From Panax quinquefolius (taxonomy: Eukaryota; Streptophyta; Magnoliopsida; Apiales; Araliaceae), in NCBI GenBank assembly GCA_020205615.1, contig JAINUW010000482.1, forward strand, positions 479,501 to 543,500: a stretch of DNA of 64,000 nt, given 5' to 3'. Of the stretch, positions 2,554 to 48,879 are shown piece by piece. Position numbers and translations under genes: made by a program. Each line of letters opens with the position of its first letter. Positions within the stretch are counted from its first letter, which is position 1. The notes under the pieces are model-generated. The model ran no database searches, was not told where the DNA came from, and was given only the letters and a program-made list of their open reading frames with translations.

Positions 2554-3016
2554 AATACATATTGTTGGTAGTAACTCCAATAGGACCGTGGTATATGTTA
2601 GTGACACAAACCAGGGAAGACCATCCTCATCGAAGAGGACCGGTGATGGAATATGTTATACACATCCTCAAACAGACAAAGCTTTATCCCCACAGATCTC
2701 TTGCATACGAGAGACACATCTTTAGAGTAAAGTTTGTATCAAGGATTCAAGACTTTGGTGATAACCCCAACGTTAACATCCTAGAAGACTTAGATCACAC
2801 GTCCAGGACATCACTGATTGTCATCCCCGGCAGGATTAACAGGGAACCGGCAATCATCCCATCATGTTGGAAAATAATCCAACAAAACACATGCATCATG
2901 CATTTACATCATGTTGCTGCACATGGCATCATGTTTATCTTGTTGCATTTCAAGTGTCTAGGATTCTTTATCCTATCCATGCCTTGCATTGCATGAATAT
3001 GATAAAGAGGGGCATC
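2554..3016 (+). promoter_or_regulatory. 3' untranslated stretch and polypurine tract of T1
   Basis: This non-coding stretch matches 45942-46319 of T2. It ends in the purine-rich ATAAAGAGGGG (about 3002-3012), followed by CATC and the LTR start TGTAGACACTC at 3017. The position directly before a TG-starting LTR is that of the primer for plus-strand DNA synthesis. Confidence 0.75.
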
Positions 3017-3067
3017 TGTAGACACTCAAATTTTACTTTTTATTACTTAACATTGCGGGGAGGCGAT

Positions 3068-3462
3068 TCGTCTTTCAGAGATAACCCTGGAAGACATCTC
3101 ATATACATTCTGGATACCACCGAAAGTTCAGTCTCAACCCTGGAACACACACCGCGAGAATCAATTCCAACCTCGGAGATAACCTCGAGTTTCATCCTTG
3201 GAGATAACCCCAAGGAATGTCGTTACAGTTCTGGCAATAACCCTAGAAATGTTTGTTTCAAATGCATGCAATCAGCTTCAACCTCGGAACTCCCGTCGAG
3301 GCAGTCACTCCAAAGACCCAGAGATAACGTCAGGAGGACAGGCACACTTAAAGATGACCCTGAGGAATTCAAACACTTGCTGCAGTCCAATCTCAGAGAT
3401 AAACCTGAGCAACGTCTGTTTTATCAGCCTAAACTGGAGATAAGCCCGGTGAGGGGTAAAAT
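3068..3462. repeat. Array of short hairpins with AGATAACC loops (U3 of T1)
   Basis: Around nine units spaced 25-60 bp apart, each a 5-6 bp stem with an 8-nt loop close to AGATAACC. Clear cases are CCTTGG/CCAAGG (3196-3215), CTCAG/CTGAG and ACTGG/CCGGT. Stems differ in sequence yet mostly stay paired. The array repeats in both LTRs of T2. Confidence 0.75.
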
Positions 3463-3869
3463 TGTCATCTTGCCACCCCAACCACATTGCGCCATCTCAA
3501 CATCTCATATATACATTTCTACACAACAATGTCCCACAAGAGCCAAGGAGTTACAATCCCGAGTGACTATTACGCATGGCAACACAACGGATAGAATTTG
3601 AAGCTTGAAGACCATGGGCATGGTCCCCTCTTCCTGACTCTGTATAACCTCTAATCCCATGTCATTGCGTAACTCTCGACAACGACGGTCCAAAAAAGGT
3701 CTTATACACCTCAATCGGATGCTCAGATTGATGTTACGCAAGTTGACGGACATCACGGTGCTGCACGCAGTGAGCGTGCTTTGAGATGGCGGGGACTGCA
3801 GAGCAGGGCACCCCGGGCACCCCGTGATGCATCTGTGGCTACCGCAGGTACACCTGCGGCCACCAGCTT

Positions 3870-3877
3870 TATAAATA
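3870..3877 (+). promoter_or_regulatory. TATA box of the T1 LTR
   Basis: TATAAATA lies about 850 bp into the LTR, just after the palindromic GCAGGTACACCTGC region. It is kept at 18777-18784 and 47214-47221 in T2. It probably marks the U3/R boundary about 30 bp downstream. Confidence 0.65.
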
Positions 3878-4189
3878 TAGAGCTTGGGGTGGCCATAATT
3901 CAAGAAAAAAAAGGCAAGGAAGCCCTATCAAATTTTCTCTGTACACCCCCTATATTGAGTGTTTTGTCATTTTAAGCACTTGTTAGCTCACATATAGCTA
4001 TATTTTTACCGATAGGAGTCGAGTGTTCATCCACTTAGAATCATATAAGTCTTCTTTGGCAGCCCACTGTAAGCCTTCTTACACTCTATAAAGCCTTTCT
4101 CTTCATCTTTGCACACATTATTTTTCACATTGAGAGTCGTGTGGTGTGTGTATGCCAAGACTTCTGTCTGTGGTTTTCATTTCTGTCTG

Positions 4190-4442
4190 TATATATATAC
4201 TTATATATGTATATATTTATATATATGGACTAACATTATCGAGTTATGCCTCGATTGAGCTAGACTTATGTCTGGAGCGATTACTTGCTTATATATATAT
4301 ATATATGAACTATTGTCGGATTATGTCCGATGAGCCTGAATTTTACATCCGGTGCATTTACTGCTTTCATATATATGTAGAGAGACAAATCTATGAAATG
4401 ATAAACCGAGCCGGGATTGAGAAATATCCTGTGCGTTTATCA

Positions 4443-4489
<47 letters not shown>

Positions 4490-4636
4490 TTATTTCATTT
4501 GGAGTTTACTTGTTGGCCTTTTACTACTTTTTATTTACATTAGTCCACTTTGGAGTTTACTTCGTGGCAGTTGATCGCATTTATTACTTTATTTACCTTT
4601 CAGATCCCCCATGGAGGTGCTTCGTGGTGGTTGATC

Positions 4637-4673
<37 letters not shown>

Positions 4674-4790
4674 CCGCTTTTATATATTTACATTTCTGAT
4701 CCCCCGTGGAGGTGCATCGTGGTGGCTGATCATGTTTGTATATATATATATTTACAGTTTTTATATATATAACTGCTTACGCTTTTCATA
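4190..4790. repeat. TA-microsatellite modules in the T1 LTR
   Basis: About seven diverged modules of 60-100 bp are separated by (TA)n tracts, the longest at about 4445-4482 and 4639-4670. Early modules contain hairpins (ATCGAG/CTCGAT at 4238-4255, TCGGA/TCCGA at 4316-4330). Later modules share GATCCCCCRTGGAGGTGC and CGTGGTGGYTGATCA. Confidence 0.8.
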
Positions 4791-5206
4791 TAAACTGCGG
4801 CATCATGTGAGCCTAGGAATCGTGTGATCACAGATTCAGTCCACTGAATCTAGATTCGATTCTCGTGATGGACATTTCAGCTGTAAGCAGCTTGAAAATT
4901 ATTCACAGTGTTTGAATTTCCTTAGATGGATTTAATGTCCATGAGGAATTCGGCACTGCTATATATTATTTTCTCGAAGATGCTTCGCATCTCGAAAATA
5001 AAAGAAATCAAGCCGAACATTTAATAATAAAAAGGAAGTATGAAAATGTCTCAATTACTATTGAGCACAGGGTTTGAAAAAACCTCTTTTACAAAACCTC
5101 ACTGCTATATCATGTTGAAAACTGAATTTGTCATACAAATTCAAACCCTTTGTATATAGGAGCGAACGAGGTCTAGCACTACTTCCAAATAAATTACACA
5201 TTGATC

Positions 5207-5228
5207 CACACACACACACACACACACA
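5207..5228. repeat. (CA)n microsatellite in the T1 LTR
   Basis: Eleven CA units. The T2 3' LTR has a shorter tract near 48515-48531, and the T2 5' LTR has only a remnant near 20459. Confidence 0.9.
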
Positions 5229-5569
5229 TTCATATAATAGTTTCTTGAAAAGTGGCGGTCACCGTGGTAACATGGATGTCGGGGGGTGCCTAACACCTTC
5301 CCTCCGCATAATCAAGCCCCCGAACCCAAATGAATGTCAGTTTCACAGACTCGTTTAGCAGTGTCATATCACTGGGTCAATATGCAAACCTTTTCTCGGT
5401 TGCGTTGGTGCAACCAGTTAGAAACACCAACTGGCGACTCTTACAGTCAAATCATCGACATATACATGTCGGACCTTTTTTACTTATTTTTTCAAACAAA
5501 TCTCACATAACATGAGAACACCAAAGAACAAGAACAGAAAAGGGACAAATAAAAATCCCGACGTCGACA

Positions 5570-7960
5570 TGAATCAAGTCCATAGCAGTTCTAGATGATA
5601 AGCTATTCATGGTCAAACATGATTTTTCAGGCCTTAGATCTTGCAATTGTTAAGTTGTTAGGCCATGTAAGTGTATAACTTTTGTAGTCTGACATATGAA
5701 CTACCAAACCATGACACTAGAACACCTAACAGGACTGGGTTGACCAACTACCTGGGTTGAGTTTTTGGAAAATCCAGATTTCTCAAGAACAGTTTCTGGT
5801 TGGTACTTTTACTAAGCCAGATCTTGCTTCTATGATGTTGTTAAGCTACAAAAGTGTATTATTTTTGTACCTTGACATACATACTACATAACTACGACAC
5901 TTTAACACACTAACAAACCATAATCCAAGTTATTAAGGCTTAAAAAGGGACCCTTGACATTGTCTAAGTTTCTGGGCAACCCAGAAACTAAAGAACAGCT
6001 CTAACATGATTTTTGATGGCTTATAACTTCTTCATATGATATAGTTTGACCCTGCAATTGGTTTGTGCATGTAGTATTACATCAATATTACATAGCTAGT
6101 ACACTTTCATGCCCAGAAAGCATCATGAACATAAAATTAGAAGTGGTCAAACTAGGCACCTAGGCACTGAACATCAATGTTCTTGAAGGATCAAAAACAC
6201 CTATAGCGATAGTTTTGTCGTGATAGACCCCTTTGGCGACAGTTTTATTAAAAATGAATTATTTAATTTAAATAATTAGAATAAAATGGAAAATAATTAT
6301 GAAAAATTCATAATTAATTTTTAAAAATTATTTGATGGTATAAAAATTAACTTTTAATAATTTGAGATATATTTCATAAATATTTTAATTTATTTAAATA
6401 TTAATGATATTAAATTTATTTAATAATTATATTAAATAAATTACTTAAAAATGATTTTAATATTTTAAAAATCATTTGAAAATATATTAAAGTGTTAGAA
6501 AATATTTTAAGTTATTTTGAATGACTTTTAATATTTTGGGATGAATTTCATTAATAATTTAATATTAATGATAATAAATTTATTTAATAATTGTATTAAA
6601 TAAATTATGGAAAATGGTTTTAATGTTTTAAAAATCATATAAAAATGATTTAAAAGCGTTTTAAAAATGTTTTAAGTTATAATATATAACTTTTAGTATT
6701 TTGTCATGAAATACATTAATATTTTAATATTAATGGCGACTAATTAATAATGGTTTTAAATATTTTAAAATCATTTAAAGCGATATTAAGGTATTAAAAC
6801 TACTTTGAGATATTATAAATAACTTATAATATTTTGACATGGATTTCATAAATATTTGAAATTTATTAAATATTAATGATAATGGAATTATCTGATATTT
6901 AAATCATTTAAAAGGATAATAATGATTAAAAATCATTATAAATGATCATAATTACTTGAAAATTATTATGAGCTTTTGAAAAATGTTTTGACTAGTAATT
7001 AACTTATCTAAAATAATATTGAAGCAGTTAAGTAGAGTCTTATTGAAAATAGGCTCGATAGTTATCTGATTAGACAATCGAGATGTCGAAATAGTATTGA
7101 ACTCAACTCAAACTGAAATAGTTTGACTTCATACCGAGTCTTATGTGTTTTAGTGACTATTAGGAATATGTGCTTATGTGTTTAAGTTATATTATAACTG
7201 TAATTAAAAGTTTTATATGTGATGAAATTATTCTAATTGAGCGATCGATATTATCAATAATAGGTCTTTCAACATCAGCTAAAATATATTGTGTAACAGC
7301 AGTCGATGATACATGCAAGTTCTTGTACTTTTGTTGTGCAAGTTCTCAAACTCAAACTTGAGTTATTATTTCAAAGCATGCTTATGGTTAATCATTGTTA
7401 ATTATATCACATCTTTGATTATTGATTCGAACGTTGTGCATATTGCATATGATTAATGATCACCTTCATTACCATTTGGTTCAGTTAAATTATTCATGTT
7501 CATTGTTGGCCATTCATTATTATTGACTCGGTCATTCAGTTATGAAAATTGATTCATGTTCTTTCATAATTATTATATTGTTAAAAGTTTGTCATCTTAT
7601 TATTCTTTTCAATCATGATATATCTTTCTTTGAACTTAAACTTGTTTGGCAAACTTGTTGTTCACCCTTGCTATATCATGATAAACATTTTAGATTAAGA
7701 CGAAACTTCGGATGCAGGCAAAGACAAAGACAAGTTCTAGGATTAGATTATTTTACAGTTAAAAGTGTAATAATATAGGAGGCAAATAACATTATAAGTC
7801 CTGTAGGATATGACTTTATGTATTAAATTAAGGTTATCGACCTTGGGGAGTATGTGTAAAGGTATTTGTATAAACAATTTATATTTATATCTTTCACAGT
7901 AGTTATAAAAATGATGTACCAGGTTCGTGGTGAATAGTACCCAAATTTGGGGATGTCACA
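5570..7960. repeat. X: LTR fragment of an unidentified element
   Basis: Non-coding, very AT-rich sequence bounded on the left by T1 and on the right by GGGGATGTCACA, after which minus-strand T0 reverse transcriptase begins abruptly. The CA terminus and the GGGGRYGTCACA end resemble the LTR ends of the chromoviruses further right (GGGGGCGTCACA), so I read X as an LTR that landed in T0 and was later cut by T1. At 6250-6900 there are about four degenerate tandem units of 140-200 bp (TTTTAATATTTTAAAAATCAT starts). Orientation and family are not certain. Confidence 0.5.
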
Positions 7961-17912: not shown

Positions 17913-18776
17913 TGTACACACTCAAAATTTTCTGCACACCTGTTACTAACATTGCAGGAGGGCAGATTCATCTTTCGAATATAACACTAGAAGACAGCTC
18001 ACATCCATTCCAGATAATACTGGAAGTTCAGTCTCAACCCCGGAACACACCCCGGGAGTATCATTTCCAACCTCGGAGAGAACCCCGAGTTTCGTCCTTG
18101 GAGATAACCCCAAGGAATGTTGTTGCAGTTCCAGCGATAACTCCGAAAATACTTGTTTCAAATGCATGCTATCAGCTTCAATCTCAGACCTCCTGTCGAG
18201 GCACTCATACCTTAGACCCAGAGCTAACACCGGGCAGACAGGCACATTTACAGATGACCATGCAGCATTTAAACACTTGCAGCAGTCCAATCTCAGATGT
18301 AATCCTGAGCAACGTCTACTTTCAACTCAAACCGGAGATAACCCTGGTGAGGAGTAAAACGTCATCTTTCCACCTCAACACCTGCGCATCATCTCAACAC
18401 TTCATACATACATACATACAACAATGTCCTACAAGAACCAAGGAGTTCCAACTCGAAAGTGGTGACTATTGCATGGCGACACCGGATAAATTTAAAGCTT
18501 GAAGACCATGGGCATGGTCCCCTCTTTCTGACTTCGTACAACCTCTAATCCCATGTTATAGCGTAACTCTCAACACAAGCATTCCGAAGAAGGTCTTATA
18601 TACCTCGTTCGGATGCTCGAATTGAAGTTCTGTAAGTTTAAGCGGACATTCTGATTGCTGCAGTGCATGTACTTGAGACGATGGAACGCGTGGCAGGGGC
18701 ACCGGGCGGCAATGATGCATCTGCGGCGACCACAGTGCATCTGCGGTGCCGAGGGTAAATACCTATGGCTACCCTT

Positions 18777-18784
18777 TATAAATA
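18777..18784 (+). promoter_or_regulatory. TATA box of the T2 5' LTR
   Basis: TATAAATA at the same relative place as in the T1 LTR, about 860 bp after the LTR start. Confidence 0.65.
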
Positions 18785-19355
18785 TAGGGCTTGGGTGGCC
18801 ATTTAAGAAAAAAAAAGAGGCGAGGAAGCCCTATCCAATTTGCACTGTACACACCCCATATTGAGTGTTTCCTCATTTTAAACATCTGTTAGCTCACATA
18901 TAGCTATATTTTTACTGGTGGGAGCTAAGTGTTTATCCATATAGAGTCATAGAAGCCTGCATTGGCAGCCCACTATAAGCCTTCTCACACTCTATAAAGC
19001 CTTTCTCTTTATCTTTACACACACTATTATACACATTGAGAGTCGTGTTGTGTGCGTATGCCCGGACTTCGGTCCGTGATTTTTATTTGTCTGTATATAT
19101 ATACTTATATATGTATATATTTATATATGGACTAACATTTTCGAGTTATGCCTCGATTGAGCCTACACTTATGTCTCGAGCGTTTACTTGCTTATATATA
19201 TATATATATATAACTGTTGTCAGACATATCTGATGAGCCTAGATGTTATATCCGGAGCGTTTACCTGCTTTTATAAATATATATATACTTATATATATAT
19301 AATTGTTGTCGAACATACGATGAGCACTGGATTTTATATATCAGTGCGTTCTTTG

Positions 19356-19407
<52 letters not shown>

Positions 19408-19573
19408 CATTTTTACAGTTTACTTGAGGCCTTTTAGAACTGGAGTTTACTTGAGGCCTTTTCTTACCGCTTTACATTTAGTCCGCTTAGAGTTTATTTA
19501 GTGGCGATTGATCACATTCTTTGCTTTATTTACTTTTACGATCCCCTATGGAGTTGCTTCGTGGTGGTTGATC

Positions 19574-19625
<52 letters not shown>

Positions 19626-19631
19626 GGTCAG

Positions 19632-19865
19632 GATCAAGTCATACCCTTATCTTACTCACCGTGCTCACCCCCTTTAGCAAGCGGACACGGTGGCGATTAT
19701 TCGGCCATACAATACAACCGTAAATACATACTTTTAATGACGCTATATGTTGTCCGTCCGTCGCTAAAAGTATGAACGACTTGTTGTATGATCAAAACCG
19801 TTCTTAGGGTCCGTCGCTAAAGGGGGGTGAGCACGAGTGAGTAAGATAAGGGTATGCACTTGATC
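19632..19865. mobile_element. MITE-like element with ~45-bp terminal inverted repeats
   Basis: The left arm (GATCAAGTCATACCCTTATC...CCCCCTTTAGC, 19632-19678) is the near-perfect reverse complement of the right arm (GCTAAAGGGGGG...GCACTTGATC, about 19816-19865). The interior repeats CCGTCGCTAAA twice. At 234 bp and without coding capacity it fits a non-autonomous DNA element. It sits in a (TA)n tract, so the target duplication cannot be read and the superfamily is open. T1 and the T2 3' LTR lack it. Confidence 0.8.
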
Positions 19866-19878
19866 TGCTATATATATA

Positions 19879-19930
<52 letters not shown>

Positions 19931-20637
19931 GCTTTTATATATTTACATTTTCGATCCCCCATGGAGTTGCTTCATGGTGGTTGACCATGTCTGTATATAT
20001 ATATTTACAACTTTTATATATATAACTGCTTACTACTTTTCATATAAACTGCGGTATCATATGAACCTAGGAATCATGTGATCACATATTCATTCTATTG
20101 AATCTAGATTCGGTTCCCGTGATAGACATTTTCACCTGTAAGCAGCTTGTATATTATTTACAGTGTCTGAATTTCCTTGGATGGCTATAATGCCCATGAG
20201 GAGTTCGACATTGTTGTATATTATTTTCTCGAAGATACCTCGCATCTCAAAAATAAAAGCAAATAAGCTGAACATCTAATAATAAAATGGAAGTATCAAA
20301 GGCCTCAATTACTATTGAGCACAGGGTTTGAAAAACCTCTTTTATAAAACCTCATTGATATATCTTGTTTAAAATTGAATTTTTATATAAATTTAAACCC
20401 TCTGCATATAGGTACGAATGAGGCATAGCACTACTTCTAAATAATTGCACATTGATCCACACACACATACATTCATATAATAGTTTCTTGAAAAGTGTCG
20501 ATCACCGTGGCAACACAGATGTCGGGGGGTGCCTAACACCTTCCCTCTGCATAATCAAGCCCCCGAACCTAAATGAATCTCGGTTTCACAGACCCGTTTA
20601 ATAGTGTCATATCATTGGGTCAATGTGCAAACCTTTT

Positions 20638-20643
20638 TTGGTA
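20638..20643. other. Deletion junction T2 / G1 with GGT microhomology
   Basis: The T2 3' LTR reads CCTTTTTCGGTTGCG and the complete G1 LTR reads GAGAGGTAGCAG (37882). The junction here is CCTTTTTTGGTAGCAG, so GGT is common to both parents. Confidence 0.8.
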
Positions 20644-21920
20644 GCAGACTTCTCTTCTTCTTTCTCTCTATAATTTCTCTCTATAATAATTGCTATATAG
20701 CTTTAGTGAATTGGTGAGAAATGATGGAAGAATGAGCTTCTATTTATAGGAAAATATAGTTTCGATAATTGCACGTTTTGGGGCTCAAAATATTACAATA
20801 CAATACCTTCAACTTTTCTTTCATTTTTAATTTAGTCCTGCAAGTATTATCAAACTTGCACCACCTCCCCTAATAGTTAATAATGTGAATCAATAGTTCA
20901 ATCATGTGAATCAATAGTTATAATCATGTGAAAATACGAATTACAGTATAGTACCTCCATCTATACCTCCATTTTTAACTTAGTCATGCAAGTATTATCA
21001 ATCTTGCACCAACTCCCCTAATAGTACAAGAATGTGAATCAATAGTACACACGTGTGAACAAATAGTTATAATCATGTGAATTAATAGCAATTAATTGCT
21101 CATTTATCCCAAGTTAATTACCCATTGGTTAGTATAACTTCCAGACATCAATTAATATCGAAATAAATGTCGATTTCCACTAACACTAATAATTCCAACA
21201 CAATGGAACTATCAATTTCATCTTTAATCAACACGAACTTATTCATCATTAATATTGTAACTCACAATATTTAACAACCAGGTCGTTCCCAGGAAAGAGG
21301 GGGCTTTTCGATAAGGATTTCTCCTTATTGGCGCGCAATTAGATGACCAAACCTCTCCTTGACAAAACTTCTAGACATTGTAAATATTGTAATTTAATAA
21401 TATGAATAACTTTGTCGTCTCAATTATTGATTTAATAATATATCATATTATGTAGATGATACTGTGATAATAAATGAATCAATAATATGAGAGATATGAT
21501 GCAGCAATTACTGAAGCAATAATTGAGTATAAATGAGTGACTTCTCACGTAAGCATTAATAATCAATACCGTGTGCTACTATCCAACCACGCGTATTATT
21601 CTTTGTACTTTTACTCTAGGGTAGTTCAAGCGGTTTAACAGTAAAACTTCCATAGTTATTTTTATAAAAGATAATTATGTCATTTTCTAACTACGACAAT
21701 ACTCCGTTGTAGGGTCCACTAATGATGTGTGATTGTCATTATGAATATTCCCTTAAAACTAATATTCCCAGACCAATCGAATATTATATAACCACTTGCT
21801 TATTTTGCAAAATTTGTAAATATTACCCACAACTATAACATTATATCAAATCCACACCATAATATTCAAATATATATTTCGAGAAAATTATTCTTTATTC
21901 ATAAAAGGTGGGGTCTTACA
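20641..21920 (-). repeat. G1 3' LTR, distal part deleted
   Basis: It matches 37887-39161 of the 5' LTR closely (start GTAGCAGACTTCTC, end GGGGTCTTACA). The rest of the LTR, equal to 26753-27831 plus about 60 bp, is absent. It is followed at 21921 by the complement of a polypurine tract (ACCTCCCCTTCTTAT). Confidence 0.88.
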
Positions 21921-40990: not shown

Positions 40991-42956
40991 TCAGAAGAAG
41001 TCAATGGTATCGATGTCTACATCGTCAATCCTGTCCACCTGATGTAACTCCTCTTGAGTCACTGGATCTCTATCTACAGGGATGTCAGGCCTATACAAGG
41101 GAGGATCTGCACCGGCAAAGCCATATGGGTCACCTGAGGGGCCAGCGCCAGAGATAGAAGGATCAAAAGTGTCTGCCTCTGAAGGATCTCTACCCAAATG
41201 CCGGATAAAGATATGTGACCGGTCCAACTGTCGGGTCAAACTGTCAATCTGTGTCACATGGGTTGGATCTCTGACACAGGCTAGACAATCCGTCATCATC
41301 ACAGATCCTGGAACCATATCCCCCATAAACTGTGTGGCGTAGGTCTAAGCTCCAATGGTATGAGGGAACCACCAATGCTGGAACATCTCCTGAGTGCAGG
41401 GACCCTCTGATAATGTGAAACTGTCAACCCCCAACAATGGGATATCAATGACAGGTGACTGCAAAATACGCCAATAACGCCTGGCAGGAGGCAAGATCGG
41501 CATGCGAATCTCTCCTGTAGTGTTCCTGATAACACACTCTCCTAAATAGAGCTCCCATCCTCCATCTGTGAAGAGAGGAATCCTACAGGTGGAAATAACC
41601 TACTCAACTCCAGTCGAGTACCCATCCTCAAATCCAACACTCAAGTGCTCCCCAGAATAGGGACCCCATGTGATGATATCCACTGTTAACAACTCCAGTT
41701 GTAGGCGGCAATGAGTGAAACCCTCAGCAATAGGGACCTTCGCCAGTATAGAATGATGCCATCTCCGTCCTCTTGGATAGGTGTTTAAACCTAACACGCT
41801 CACAGGACGCAAACATGGAAGCCTTTCATAGGCCCAAAACTGCCAACACAAAGGCAACATCTACTATCAGGCAACACTCTTAACCTATACATTGGAAAAG
41901 ACAAGAGAAATACTCACCAGCAGAAATGGGTAGAATCCTAACCAAGCCTCGGTCAAGCCCTACGATCGCATGCGCATTCCCCTGAGGAAGTAGGCAAAGG
42001 TGTAGGAACCCCAATCATAGTCTCCTATATGGTCCACGTGTCGAGTGGCGCTGATCAAAGCGAAGGACACCATAGAAGATTTATCTGCTATGAAGCAGCC
42101 CCTAATGATCATCAGGAACAATCACCGATGAATGCGATCCCTAACTCTCACATCATCGAGTATAGGCTCACTTAACAGCCCGCTCATAGCATCTATGCTC
42201 AAAGGACCTATACGTATAGTCCTGCCCTTGAGCGCCTCTGCCGGAACTCCCAACAAAGATCAGACGGTAGTAGGGGTTATATCCACCGTAAAAGGCACTA
42301 GATCTCCTCCAAACTCCATACCTGTGATAAACCACCAATCCATTGGCGTCATCATCACCTCACAGTCCAAAGAATAGAGTGGATCGAGTCTAGTGAAACC
42401 AAAGATTCGAGACAATGCCCCGAGGTAACCCGAGGGGGACAACGACGGGGAAGAATAGAAAAGAACATCCACGAATCTCCGGCCATGTACATGATAATCG
42501 CTATAGTCAGTCGTCGCAAAGCTTCGATACATAGAGTGGATGTGAACGATTCCCTCGAGGCTGTGTAAAGTCGGGGACCTACATCAAATGCAGATCAACA
42601 TCAGAACCCTTTGATCCTCATCAATAGGAAATAAGGAAGATTAAGATCTATCTTCATACCTCGTTTGCGTGTAGGTAGTTTGAAGGATGCCGACTCAAGT
42701 CACCCAGAAGATCTAGGTTTGCCACTTGAATACCTGGCAAATCCCTGCGGGGAACACGTGCAGCAGGAGTAGGAACCTCAATCGGTACATCCTCCTCCTC
42801 GTCCTCGACATCCGGCACTTCAACCCGGATAGGACGTATCACCACCTCCACCAAATGATGAGGCTGTCTAACTGAACGAGGTTAAGGCACTTCAGAAGCC
42901 CTCTTCCATACACCATAAGTGGTCCTGCGAAAACTACTCGGCTAATCCAGATCCAT
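40991..42956 (-). pseudogene. Antisense plant-mobile-domain (PMD) gene, T2 copy
   Basis: Full-length model: exon 1 42956-42660 (99 codons, starts MDLD, acidic VEDEEEDVPIEVP), intron 42659-42579 (81 bp, GTATGA...GTAG), exon 2 42578-41918, intron 41917-41840 (78 bp, GTGAGT...GCAG), exon 3 41839-40991. Total about 600 codons. PMD signatures: MMTPMDWWFITGMEFGG, LKGRTIRIGPLSIDAMSG, DYDWGSYTFAYFLRGM and, across the second intron, FYPFLL/FWAYERLPCLRPV. The C-terminus is acidic (DRIDDVDIDTIDFF). It runs against the element, between pol and the 3' LTR. Breaks: TAG at codon 5, TAA in exon 1, one extra base early in exon 2, TGA after ITPTTV, TGA before LFLMI, TAG codons later. PMD identity is by motif. 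Confidence 0.75.
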
Positions 42957-45584: not shown

Positions 45585-45835
45585 CATGTATCCCCGGCGG
45601 GGGTTACAACGCCGAAGTTATGAACTAATAATGTATCCCGATTGGGGGGTTCTAACGCCGGTTACTAATCGATGATGTATCCCCATGGGGTTACAACGTC
45701 GAAGTTATTTAATCGATGATATATCATGGGGGTTACAATTGTTGAAGTTATAAGTTGACAAAGTATCCCCAACGGGGGTCACAACGCAAGTCTTTCAAGC
45801 ATCCACGTATCCCCGGCGGGGGTTACATCGCATTC
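45585..45835. repeat. Tandem repeats with CCCC(N)GGGG hairpins, T2
   Basis: About six units of 40-55 bp, each TATCCCC-(GGC/AAC/AT)-GGGGGTTACAACGC followed by a variable CGAAGTTAT tail. Expanded relative to the three units of T1 (2310-2460). Confidence 0.8.
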
Positions 45836-45941: not shown

Positions 45942-46319
45942 AATACATACTATTGGCAGTAACTCCGACAGGATGATGGGATATGTTATACACATCCTCA
46001 ACATACAAAGCTTTATCCCCACAGATCTCTTGTACACAAGAGGCACCTCTATGGAATAAAAGTCAGTGTCTAGGATTCAAGACTTTGGTGATAGCCCCAA
46101 CGTCAAAATCCTTGAAGACTTGGATCCCATGTCCAAGACATTACTGAATGTCATCCCAACAGGATTAACAGGGAACCGTCAATCATTTTCATCATGCATC
46201 ATACATTTGCATCATATTGCTGCATATAGCATCATGTTTATCTTGTTGCATTTCAAGTGTCTAGGATTCTTTATCCTACCCATGCCTTGCATTGCATGAA
46301 TATGATAAAGAGGGGCATC
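45942..46319 (+). promoter_or_regulatory. 3' untranslated stretch and polypurine tract of T2
   Basis: Non-coding, matches 2554-3016. The purine run ATAAAGAGGGG ends just before CATC and the LTR start at 46320. Confidence 0.75.
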
Positions 46320-46439
46320 TGTAGACACTCAAAATTTTCTACACACCTGTTACTAACATTACAGGAGGGCAGATTCGTCTTTCGGAGAAAACACTAGAAG
46401 ATAGCTCACATCCATTTCGGATACTACCGAAAGTTCAGT

Positions 46440-46755
46440 CTCAACCCCGGAACACACCCCGAGAGTATCATTTCCAACCTCGGAGATAACCCCGAGTTTT
46501 GTCCTTGGAGATAATCCCAAGGAATGTTGTTGCAGTTCCGGCGATAACTCCAGAAATGCTTGTTTCAAATGTATGCTATCAGCTTCAATCTCAAACCTCC
46601 TGCCGAGGCACTCATACCTCAGACCCGGAGCTAACACCGGGCAGACAGGCACATTTATAGATGACCTTGCGGCATTCAAACACTTGCAGCAGTCTAATCT
46701 CAGATGTAACCCTGAGCAACGTCTGCTTTTAACTAAAACCGGAGATAACCCTGGT
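46440..46755. repeat. Array of short hairpins with AGATAACC loops (U3 of T2)
   Basis: Paired stems: CTCGG/CCGAG (46479-46496), CCTTGG/CCAAGG (46503-46522), CCCGG/CCGGG (46624-46641), CTCAG/CTGAG (46699-46716) and ACCGG/CTGGT (46738-46755). The loops are 8 nt and close to AGATAACC. Stem sequences differ but stay complementary. Confidence 0.85.
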
Positions 46756-47213
46756 GAGGAGTCAAACATCATCTTGCCACCTCAACACCTGCGCGTCGTC
46801 TCAACACTTCATACTTACATACATACAACAATGTCGTACAAGAACCAAGGAGTTTCAATCCCGAGTGACTATTGCGCGTGGCAGCACACGAGATAGAATT
46901 TGAAGCTTGAAGACCATGGGCATGGTCCCCTCTTCCTGAATTCATACAACCTCTAATCTCATGTCATTGTGTAACTATCGACACAAGCGGTCCGAAGAAG
47001 GTCTTATATACCTCGTTTGGATGCTTGGATTGAAGTTCTATAAGTTCGAGCGGACATTCAAGATATCTGAGTGTATCGTGCTTGAGATGATGAGAACTGC
47101 GGATCTGGGGCACCCGGGCATTGTGAGTTCATCTGCTGCTACTGCAGTACACTGCTGCCACTGGCAGCAGTACACACCATAGTCGCCATGAAGTACACTG
47201 CGCGCTCCCCACA

Positions 47214-47221
47214 TATAAATA
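47214..47221 (+). promoter_or_regulatory. TATA box of the T2 3' LTR
   Basis: TATAAATA in the same context (followed by GAGGG) as in the other T-family LTRs. Confidence 0.6.
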
Positions 47222-47639
47222 GAGGGCTGGGGGTGGCCATTTGAGAAAAAAAGATAGGCGAGGAAGCCCTGTCCAATTTGCTCTATACACACCTCATATT
47301 GAGTGTTTCCTCATTTTAAACATCTGTTAGCTCACATATAGCTATATTTTTACCGGCGGGAGCCGGCGGGAGTTGAGTGTTTATCCATATAGAGTCATAG
47401 AAGCCTGCATTGGCAACCCACTGTAAGCCTTCTCACACTCTATAAAGTCTTTCTCTTCATCTTTGCACACACTATTCTACACATTGAGAGTCGTGTTGTG
47501 TGTGTATGCCCGGACTTTGGTCCGTGGTTTTCATTTTTGTCTGTATATATATACTTATATATATATATATTTGAATATGGACTAACATTATCGAGTTATG
47601 CCTCAATTGAGCCTAGACTTATGTTTAGAGCGTTTACTT

Positions 47640-47684
<45 letters not shown>

Positions 47685-47737
47685 TGCTGTTGTATACATA
47701 TCGATGAGCCTGGATTTTATATTCAAGCGTTTTTTTG

Positions 47738-47796
<59 letters not shown>

Positions 47797-47950
47797 TTAC
47801 ACCCGCCTGGAGTTTACTTCGTGGCGGTTGATCGTCTTTACTTCTTTCTTTACATTTAGTCCCGCCTGGAGTTTACTTCATGGCAGTTGATCGTATTTAC
47901 TACTTTATTTACTTTTCTGATCCCCCATGGAGTTGCTTCGTGGTGGTGGT

Positions 47951-47987
<37 letters not shown>

Positions 47988-48879
47988 GCTTTTATATACT
48001 TACATTTTCGATCCCCCATGGAGTTGCTTCGTGGTGGTTGATCATGTTTGTATATATATATTCTGACTTTTATATATATAATCGCTATCGCTTTTCATAT
48101 AAACTGCGGTATCATGTGAGCCTAGGAATCATGTGATCACAGATTCATTCTATTGAATCTAGATTCGATTCCCGTGATGGACATTTTCAGCTGTAAGCAG
48201 CTTGTATATTATTTACAATGTCTAAATTTCCTTGGATGGCTGTCATGCCCATGAGGAGTTCGGCATTGCTGTATATTATTTTCTCGAAGATACTTCGCAT
48301 CTCAAAAATAAAAGCAAACAAGCCGAACATCTAATAATAAAATGGAAGTATCAAAGGCCTCAATTACTATTGAGCACATGGTTTGAAAAACCTCTTTTAC
48401 AAAACCTCATTGCTATATCTTGTTTAAAATTGAATTTTTATATAAATTCAAACCCTCTGCATATAGGTACGAATGAGGCATAGCACTACTTCCAAATAAT
48501 TGCACAATGATCCACACACACACACACACACATTCATATAACAGTTTCTTGAAAAGTGACGGTCACCATGGCAACATGGATGTCGGGGGGTGCCTAACAC
48601 TTTCCCTCCGCATAATCAAGCCACCGAACCCAAATGAATCTCGGTTTCACAGACTCGTTTAATAGTGTCATTTCACTGGGTCAATGTACAAACCTTTTTC
48701 GGTTGCGTTGGTGCAACCAGTTAAAAACACCAATTGGCGACTCTTAAAGTCAAATCGTCGACATTACACATGTCGGACCTTTTTCACTTGTTTTTTCAAA
48801 CAAATCTCACATAATAATGAGAACACTAAAGAACAAGTAACGAAAAGGGACAGCTAAAAATTCCGACGTCGACAGGAAG

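Follow-up and report, generated by a model that had tools for sequence, protein, structure and literature searches.

A tandem array of short hairpins with changing but complementary arms in the LTRs of Panax quinquefolius retrotransposons

RESULTS

Host element and location of the array

The window, the whole stretch of DNA that was analyzed, comprises 64,000 nt of Panax quinquefolius contig JAINUW010000482.1 (positions 479,501 to 543,500, forward strand; genome assembly of 3.57 Gb). It contains three related long terminal repeats (LTRs) of about 2.5 kb, T1, T2, and T3, with a TG start and the tract AAAGAGGGGCATC; the T3 LTR begins TGTAGACACTC after this polypurine tract. The main features are as follows.

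3017-5573: T1 LTR; the ends are those of its match to T3
3071..3450, + strand: T1 array (units u1 to u11), from the alignment with T2 and T3
17913-20645: T2 LTR; the ends are those of its match to T3
17971..18348, + strand: T2 array (in a 5′ LTR according to the original prediction), from the alignment with T1 and T3
41600..41860, − strand: antisense reading-frame piece like the Plant mobile domain (PF10536)
46320..48878, + strand: T3 LTR (3′ LTR), U3 first; matches T2 and T1 and ends where the T1 match stops
47214..47221, + strand: likely TATA box TATAAATA; the array lies about 460 bp upstream

The position of TATAAATA likely puts the array in U3, about 460 to 840 bp upstream of the TATA-like box. 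Downstream of this box, between TA runs, the T3 LTR carries a 59-nt tandem repeat (47788 to 47916). Tandem repeats of 44 nt lie upstream of the polypurine tract (45586 to 45830 and 2303 to 2402), and palindromes like CCCC(N3)GGGG and TAAC motifs can be seen in them by eye. The Tat lineage of Ty3/gypsy elements is marked by its reverse transcriptase phylogeny, by an archaeal-type second RNase H, and by a long region with antisense coding between pol and the 3′ LTR. Among three short antisense pieces, one resembles PF10536 below threshold (24.9 bits, with a curated cutoff of 34.9), and the antisense TRP28 domain of the Retand type was not found in any of them. Rfam 15 gave no match at gathering score in positions 46000 to 47500 of the window or in five further loci.

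Alignment of the three window copies yields 11 hairpin units in the U3 of the T-family LTRs, irregularly spaced and mostly formed by short arms around an 8-nt loop near AGATAACC. In T3, they are arranged as follows.

46378..46401, + strand: u1, TCTTTCGG/CTAGAAGA; TCTTTC(A/G)G/CTGGAAGA with a standing T·G in the group majorities
46415..46432, + strand: u2, TTTCGG/CCGAAA with the 6-nt loop ATACTA; TTCCAG/CTGGAA in T2
46446..46463, + strand: u3, CCCGG, loop AACACACC, CCGAG; perfect in T2 and both majorities but not in T3
46479..46496, + strand: u4, CTCGG agataacc CCGAG
46502..46523, + strand: u5, TCCTTGG agataatc CCAAGGA
46536..46555, + strand: u6, TTCCGG cgataact CCAGAA, mismatched at one position in T3; the T3-group majority has TTCCGG/CCGGAA
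46589..46608, + strand: u7, broken in T3 and the T3-group majority; CCTCGG aactcccg CCGAGG in the T1-group majority
46624..46641, + strand: u8, CCCGG agctaaca CCGGG
46654..46671, + strand: u9, loop AGATGACC; arms unpaired in T3
46699..46716, + strand: u10, CTCAG atgtaacc CTGAG
46738..46755, + strand: u11, ACCGG agataacc CTGGT, with one G·T

The original prediction had placed five stems between 46440 and 46755, and these coordinates and stems (u4, u5, u8, u10, and u11, the last with one G·T) are correct, as is the equivalent array that it saw in T1 and T2. The array is larger than that span, with 11 units of which the first lies at 46378. The predicted run of at least five units in a row holds insofar as the five stems exist, but the run is interrupted by u6, u7, and u9, whose pairing in T3 is imperfect. 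The loop, said to be constant, is not: T3 loops include AGATAACC, AGATAATC, AGCTAACA, and ATGTAACC.

Counts of perfect Watson-Crick stems (minimum 5 bp, loop of exactly 8 nt) are four in T3, two in T1, and four in T2; 500 dinucleotide shuffles gave means of 0.20, 0.28, and 0.24 and maxima of 2, 3, and 2. The array of the T1 window copy is partly decayed, and its two stems do not exceed its shuffle maximum of 3. With any loop of 4 to 12 nt, the counts of perfect stems (4, 3, and 4, against 2.1, 2.9, and 2.1 in shuffles) are not above chance, so the signal sits in the fixed loop length. A scan of the whole window for at least three perfect stems sharing one loop length of 4 to 12 nt within 400 nt found clusters only for the 8-nt class, in T2 and T3, with none in T1.

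Arms match within units in the subfamily majorities

Majority sequences were built from 40 T1-group and 38 T3-group copies, namely T1, T2, and T3 and 75 nonduplicate genome loci. The genome copies came from 38 of 40 and 40 of 40 places in two lists; three loci that were the window copies again (L001, L007, and L029) were left out of the copy and majority counts, and L079 to L108 are not in the counts. The T1-group majority reads TTCAG/CTGGA, TCCGG/CCGGA (6-nt loop), CCCGG/CCGGG, CTCGG/CCGAG, CTTGG/CCAAG, and TCCGG/CCAGA for u1 to u6 and CTCGG/CCGAG, CCCGG/CCGGG, CTTAA/CTGAG, CTCAG/CTGAG, and ACCGG/CCGGT for u7 to u11, and 8 of its 11 loops are within one change of AGATAACC. In the subfamily majorities, 8 of 11 stems are perfect over 5 bp, with eight different 5′ arms among the 11 units of each T group.

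Watson-Crick pairs occupy 51 of 55 core positions in the T1-group majority and 48 of 55 in the T3-group majority. When arms were permuted between units, the means fell to 35.2 and 34.0, and the observed values were reached in 0 of 20,000 permutations; in single copies, the real pairing exceeded all 200 permutations in 75 of 78 cases. An open scan of majorities from 30 and 28 copies, admitting stems of at least 4 bp and loops of 6 to 9 nt, retrieved seven and nine perfect hairpins, all with 8-nt loops except for one of 6 nt.

No paired change separates the T1-group from the T3-group majority, and u6 (T1 group), u7 and u9 (T3 group), u9 in part (T1 group), and u11 (L115 family) are broken in their majorities. 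The broken u6, u7, and u9 and the missing paired change between the T majorities count against strict upkeep. The T1, T3, L113-type, and L115 majorities all have a T·G pair at u1.

Copies of one subfamily mostly record decay

The tree of the 78 nonduplicate arrays is star-like. In 58 copies, single changes at majority Watson-Crick pairs gave 187 A·C, 170 G·U, and 56 other mismatches, and these 413 unmatched single changes compare with 42 double changes that keep pairing. Stem sites vary more than loop sites, mainly at CG and CHG sites, where stem change rates within subfamilies are 0.12 to 0.15 against 0.02 to 0.03 elsewhere in stems. We read the differences within subfamilies as neutral decay of dead copies after insertion. 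Paired cells are only slightly above shuffles that leave relatedness uncontrolled (1592 versus 1586.1 in the T1 group, with 31 of 500 shuffles as high; 1470 versus 1459.9 in the T3 group, with 0 of 500), and double changes are in weak excess (29 versus 21.9, with 23 of 500 shuffles as high; 19 versus 11.8, with 8 of 500). This slight excess is compatible with a fold in active elements without proving one.

Since the copies differ by postinsertion decay on a star-like tree, a covariation test across the copies of one family, the check proposed with the original prediction, is nearly uninformative. The outcome named as refuting the prediction, stem breaks as frequent as loop changes, does occur among copies, but this is the wrong level for the question.

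In L010 and L025, u3 is tandemly duplicated (about 34 nt), showing how an array can grow.

Covariation across divergent families

The pattern CNNNGAGATAACCCNNNG has 32,882 matches (16,344 + 16,538) in the 3.57-Gb genome, against 96 (51 + 45) for the reversed control, and a pattern with the G-C class at one arm pair has 7,477 against 0. Among the first 100 listed matches of CNNNGAGATAACCCNNNG, 51 have Watson-Crick pairs at all three free positions, compared with a mean of 21.9 and a maximum of 34 over 5,000 permutations of their arms.

From the first 100 of the 32,882 places, 20 loci (L109 to L128) were picked by hand, all on contig C1 and mostly where matches cluster. BLAST matched 18 of them to the T1/T3 LTR at 64 to 88% identity; L109 matches the 3′ untranslated region alone, and L122 has no reported BLAST match. 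Their arrays comprise up to 13 listed units, with frequent steps of 31 to 35, 41 to 46, and 65 nt. Most loops of L122 are AGACAACC in place of AGATAACC, and in L116, near position 355, some units pair better around a 9-nt loop (CCCAG agataaccc CTGG), an alternative register.

These loci hold 158 units whose loop is within one change of AGATAACC. Watson-Crick pairs at positions 2, 4, and 5 (110, 123, and 131) far exceed the permuted means of 75.3, 73.0, and 82.0. Pair 3 (109, mean 95.1) and pair 6 (72, mean 56.8) remain below their permuted maxima of 111 and 76, pair 1 shows almost no variation (127 versus 123.5), and pairs 7 and 8 are without covariation. A second alignment (A2) comprises 110 units from the 20 loci that lie outside the selection by the search pattern and were chosen by the loop alone, the conservation of the loop there being due to that selection. 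Its 106 distinct units have 80.0% of cells paired (70.4 ± 1.1 in shuffles) and 94 doubly changed cells (45.8 ± 4.8), with a covariation of 0.500 against 0.321 ± 0.018 for shuffled units, which do not control for relatedness, and at most 0.268 for slid registers, which do so in part. The covariation test for a kept fold thus gives a value above shuffles and in register.

Family majorities agree with this. The 14 counted units of the L115 family (14 copies) are Watson-Crick at 66 of 70 core pairs, with 0 of 20,000 permutations as high, and the nine units of the L117 family (9 copies) at 42 of 45, with 1 of 20,000; the units of both were read with an 8-nt loop, which fixes that length by construction. 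Two further groups, f113 and f111, consist of five and three mixed copies. Of the 225 pairs in the T1-group, T3-group, L115, and L117 majorities taken together, 207 are Watson-Crick, the remainder consisting of 10 G·U, 4 A·C, and 4 of other kinds; units with divergent loops were noticed in part because they pair.

Units were matched between families as orthologs from BLAST alignments and their spacing, and three of them differ by paired changes. In u5, CCTTGG/CCAAGG of the T families corresponds to CCTCGG/CCGAGG in L115 (T-A to C-G). In u8, CCCGG/CCGGG of T corresponds to CCTGG/CCAGG in the L117 family (C-G to T-A). In u9, CCTCAG/CTGAGG, present in 9 of 23 aligned rows, corresponds to CCTCAA/TTGAGG in L113 and L116, both single copies (G-C to A-T). 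One-sided changes, G·U as well as A·C, are also present at orthologous pairs. The proposal that paired changes mark a selected fold stands in part: the changes are real, exceed permuted arms, shuffles, and slid registers, and occur across divergent families, with a few at orthologous u5, u8, and u9, but the T1- and T3-group majorities lack a paired change and some stems are broken.

Small contigs aside, arrays of the T1/T3 type occur, among the best 40 matches per search, on large contigs C2 to C9, C11, C13, C18, and C23, with one on C16. The best matches of the L115/L117 type, again 40 per search, are on C1, C10, C12, C14, C15, C17, C19 to C22, and C24, with several on C16 and one on C9. This split looks like the two subgenomes of an allotetraploid.

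A related hairpin outside the LTR

One further unit, u0, precedes the LTR.

2751..2774, + strand: u0 of T1, 266 nt upstream of the LTR
46081..46104, + strand: u0 of T3, GACTTTGG tgatagcc CCAACGTC, 7 of 8 pairs, in the 3′ untranslated region 239 nt before the LTR

Across loci it takes the form GACTTTGG tgataacc CCAACGTC, with one internal mismatch and a loop nearly that of the array. Of 46 entries examined, duplicates included, 24 have u0, 18 have an LTR-array unit as best match, and 4 have no match; 14 of the 24 pair at 7 of 8 positions. In 22 nonduplicate loci, among them L111 and L113, which belong to other families, u0 lies 208 to 266 nt before the LTR. Neither 5′ nor solo LTRs are expected to bear u0, and a promoter element is not expected at its place outside the LTR. 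At the RNA level, u0 is a close neighbor of the array at the 3′ end; at the DNA level, it does not belong to the promoter of the 5′ LTR.

Comparison of the two strands

A preference for G·U over A·C, which would mark pairing in RNA, is not significant in the family majorities, where 10 G·U face 4 A·C (binomial P = 0.18; Fisher test against copies, P = 0.10) and shared ancestry inflates the 10. Copies have 170 G·U against 187 A·C, and pairs 1 to 5 of the 158 units have 67 against 62. The T3 array folds only weakly better than shuffles in sense (z = −1.43), an unremarkable value, and does better in antisense (z = −3.15). The RNA, cruciform, and dyad readings of the original prediction are not separated by these results, although a dyad with fixed half-sites fits worst because the arms vary. 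Arm diversity, with eight distinct 5′ arms among the 11 units of either T group, speaks against a protein-bound dyad with conserved symmetric half-sites, which is rejected.

DISCUSSION

Stems that remain paired while differing in sequence across thousands of copies suggest that the folded shape itself is kept by some process. Complementary arms that change around a recurrent asymmetric loop suggest a fold together with recognition of the loop. The best reading, to which we give a probability of roughly 0.4, is that hairpins repeated at the RNA 3′ end present loops that a protein of the element would bind. This reading is also favored by the T·G pair of u1 in the four majorities and by the lack of exact inverted loops in the 20 loci. 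The units, the favored loop length, the pairing kept despite arm change, its presence in several divergent families, and the position of u0 outside the LTR are directly supported; what we infer is that RNA rather than DNA is the folded molecule, that selection keeps its pairing, and which protein is the partner. The tandem short hairpins, most with an 8-nt loop near AGAUAACC, lie in U3, apart from one in the neighboring 3′ untranslated region, and a full-length RNA would gather them at its 3′ end. There, the element RNA would fold the units, and an RNA-binding protein, most likely the element's own Gag or nucleocapsid, would bind the many loops. This binding may aid packaging, dimerization, or reverse transcription. 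It is conceivable, though doubtful, that in a large group of plant LTR retrotransposons some 9 to 14 such hairpins are multivalent docking sites that act through the loop AGAUAACC as a packaging or dimerization array. The missing clear wobble bias, the weak sense fold, the broken majority units, and the location in U3, which is the usual place of enhancers, are evidence against the RNA reading.

A rather unlikely alternative is a regulatory array at the DNA level, in which repeated U3 enhancer sites are bound as a duplex, for example by a GATA-type factor on AGATAA, or are extruded as cruciforms. The AGATAA of the array loop fits the GATA-factor motif WGATAR. The distance of about 460 to 840 bp to the TATA-like box, the common unit steps of 31 to 35, 41 to 46, and 65 nt, and copies without G·U preference all suit enhancer sites, and the consulted parts of the literature describe tandem repeats in U3, including those of Tnt1 (PMC3601003), whose BII boxes bind defense-induced factors (PMC3316501). 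A dimer on fixed half-sites would, however, not yield arms that vary between units yet remain complementary. Moreover, units whose loops lack the GATA core (AAACAACA, CAAAAGCC, and AACACACC) keep perfect stems, although they were noticed partly because they pair, and u0 lies outside the LTR. The position of u0 and the pattern of arms and loops are why the reading with folded RNA and a loop-binding element protein is preferred.

Pairing could also be kept without use to the element. An old palindromic unit may have multiplied in tandem, with its arms rematched by template switching during reverse transcription or replication. This explanation, which was absent from the original prediction, is already in print, at least in the part of the source consulted: template switching is reported to be able to generate and sustain hairpins that bear compensatory changes (PMC8794818). 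Also in its favor are the tandem duplications of u3 in L010 and L025 and the weak excess of double changes within subfamilies (29 versus 21.9; 19 versus 11.8). Against it, exact loop inversions, a possible by-product of switching, number 0 in the 20 loci holding 158 units, the T·G of u1 is left uncorrected across families, and unmatched single changes outnumber matched double changes in genomic copies (413 versus 42). We regard neutral upkeep as unlikely, yet as a serious rival in view of that published account.

That correlated decay of CG and CHG sites in GC-rich arms mimics pairing is highly improbable, since this can account for single-copy changes, which do cluster at such sites within subfamilies, but cannot yield different complementary arms in subfamily majorities or the in-register covariation peak of 106 distinct units. 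Chance or composition as the source of the array is excluded by the shuffles, the window scan, the arm permutation, and the unit covariation test.

Several known systems share single traits with the array. The BII boxes of Tnt1 are likewise short motifs repeated in U3; in the accessible parts of their descriptions, they are factor-binding boxes with no mention of covarying stems (PMC3316501, PMC3601003), whereas the varying arms here pair around a kept loop. Retand elements, as far as the consulted part of their description goes, likewise have repeats toward the 3′ end, along with antisense coding in that region, which the below-threshold PF10536-like piece here may parallel, but their arrays lie in the internal region rather than in U3, and their LTRs, at 315 to 1,194 bp, are shorter than the LTRs of about 2.5 kb described here, which fall outside the Retand length range (PMC11963269). 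The words "hairpin" and "secondary structure" are absent from the text of that paper. The packaging and dimerization stem-loops of Ty1 are also short hairpins near an RNA end, which according to the part consulted is the 5′ end (PMC5454406), whereas up to 13 to 14 units lie here in U3, at the 3′ end. Template-switch hairpins show multibase compensatory stem changes, as here, but the excerpted account places them in RNA genes, without a tandem array of fixed 8-nt loops (PMC8794818). In the portions seen of the open-license literature on Tat, Ogre, LTR or U3 hairpins, and tandem repeats, no covarying hairpin array in LTRs was found, and a text search of that literature for the motif gave no LTR-titled paper among the matches listed.

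LTR retrotransposons make up a large share of plant genomes, and to our knowledge, the cis-acting RNA structures of those in plants are little studied. If the RNA reading is true, which for this particular role we consider unlikely on present evidence, the units would form a 3′-terminal packaging or dimerization array of a kind that was not found described for plant retroelements in the open-license literature. An array that keeps its fold while its sequence changes offers a direct handle, with many natural stem variants around one loop, and it also permits a test, on natural sequences, of the extent to which hairpins can stay matched through template switching rather than selection.
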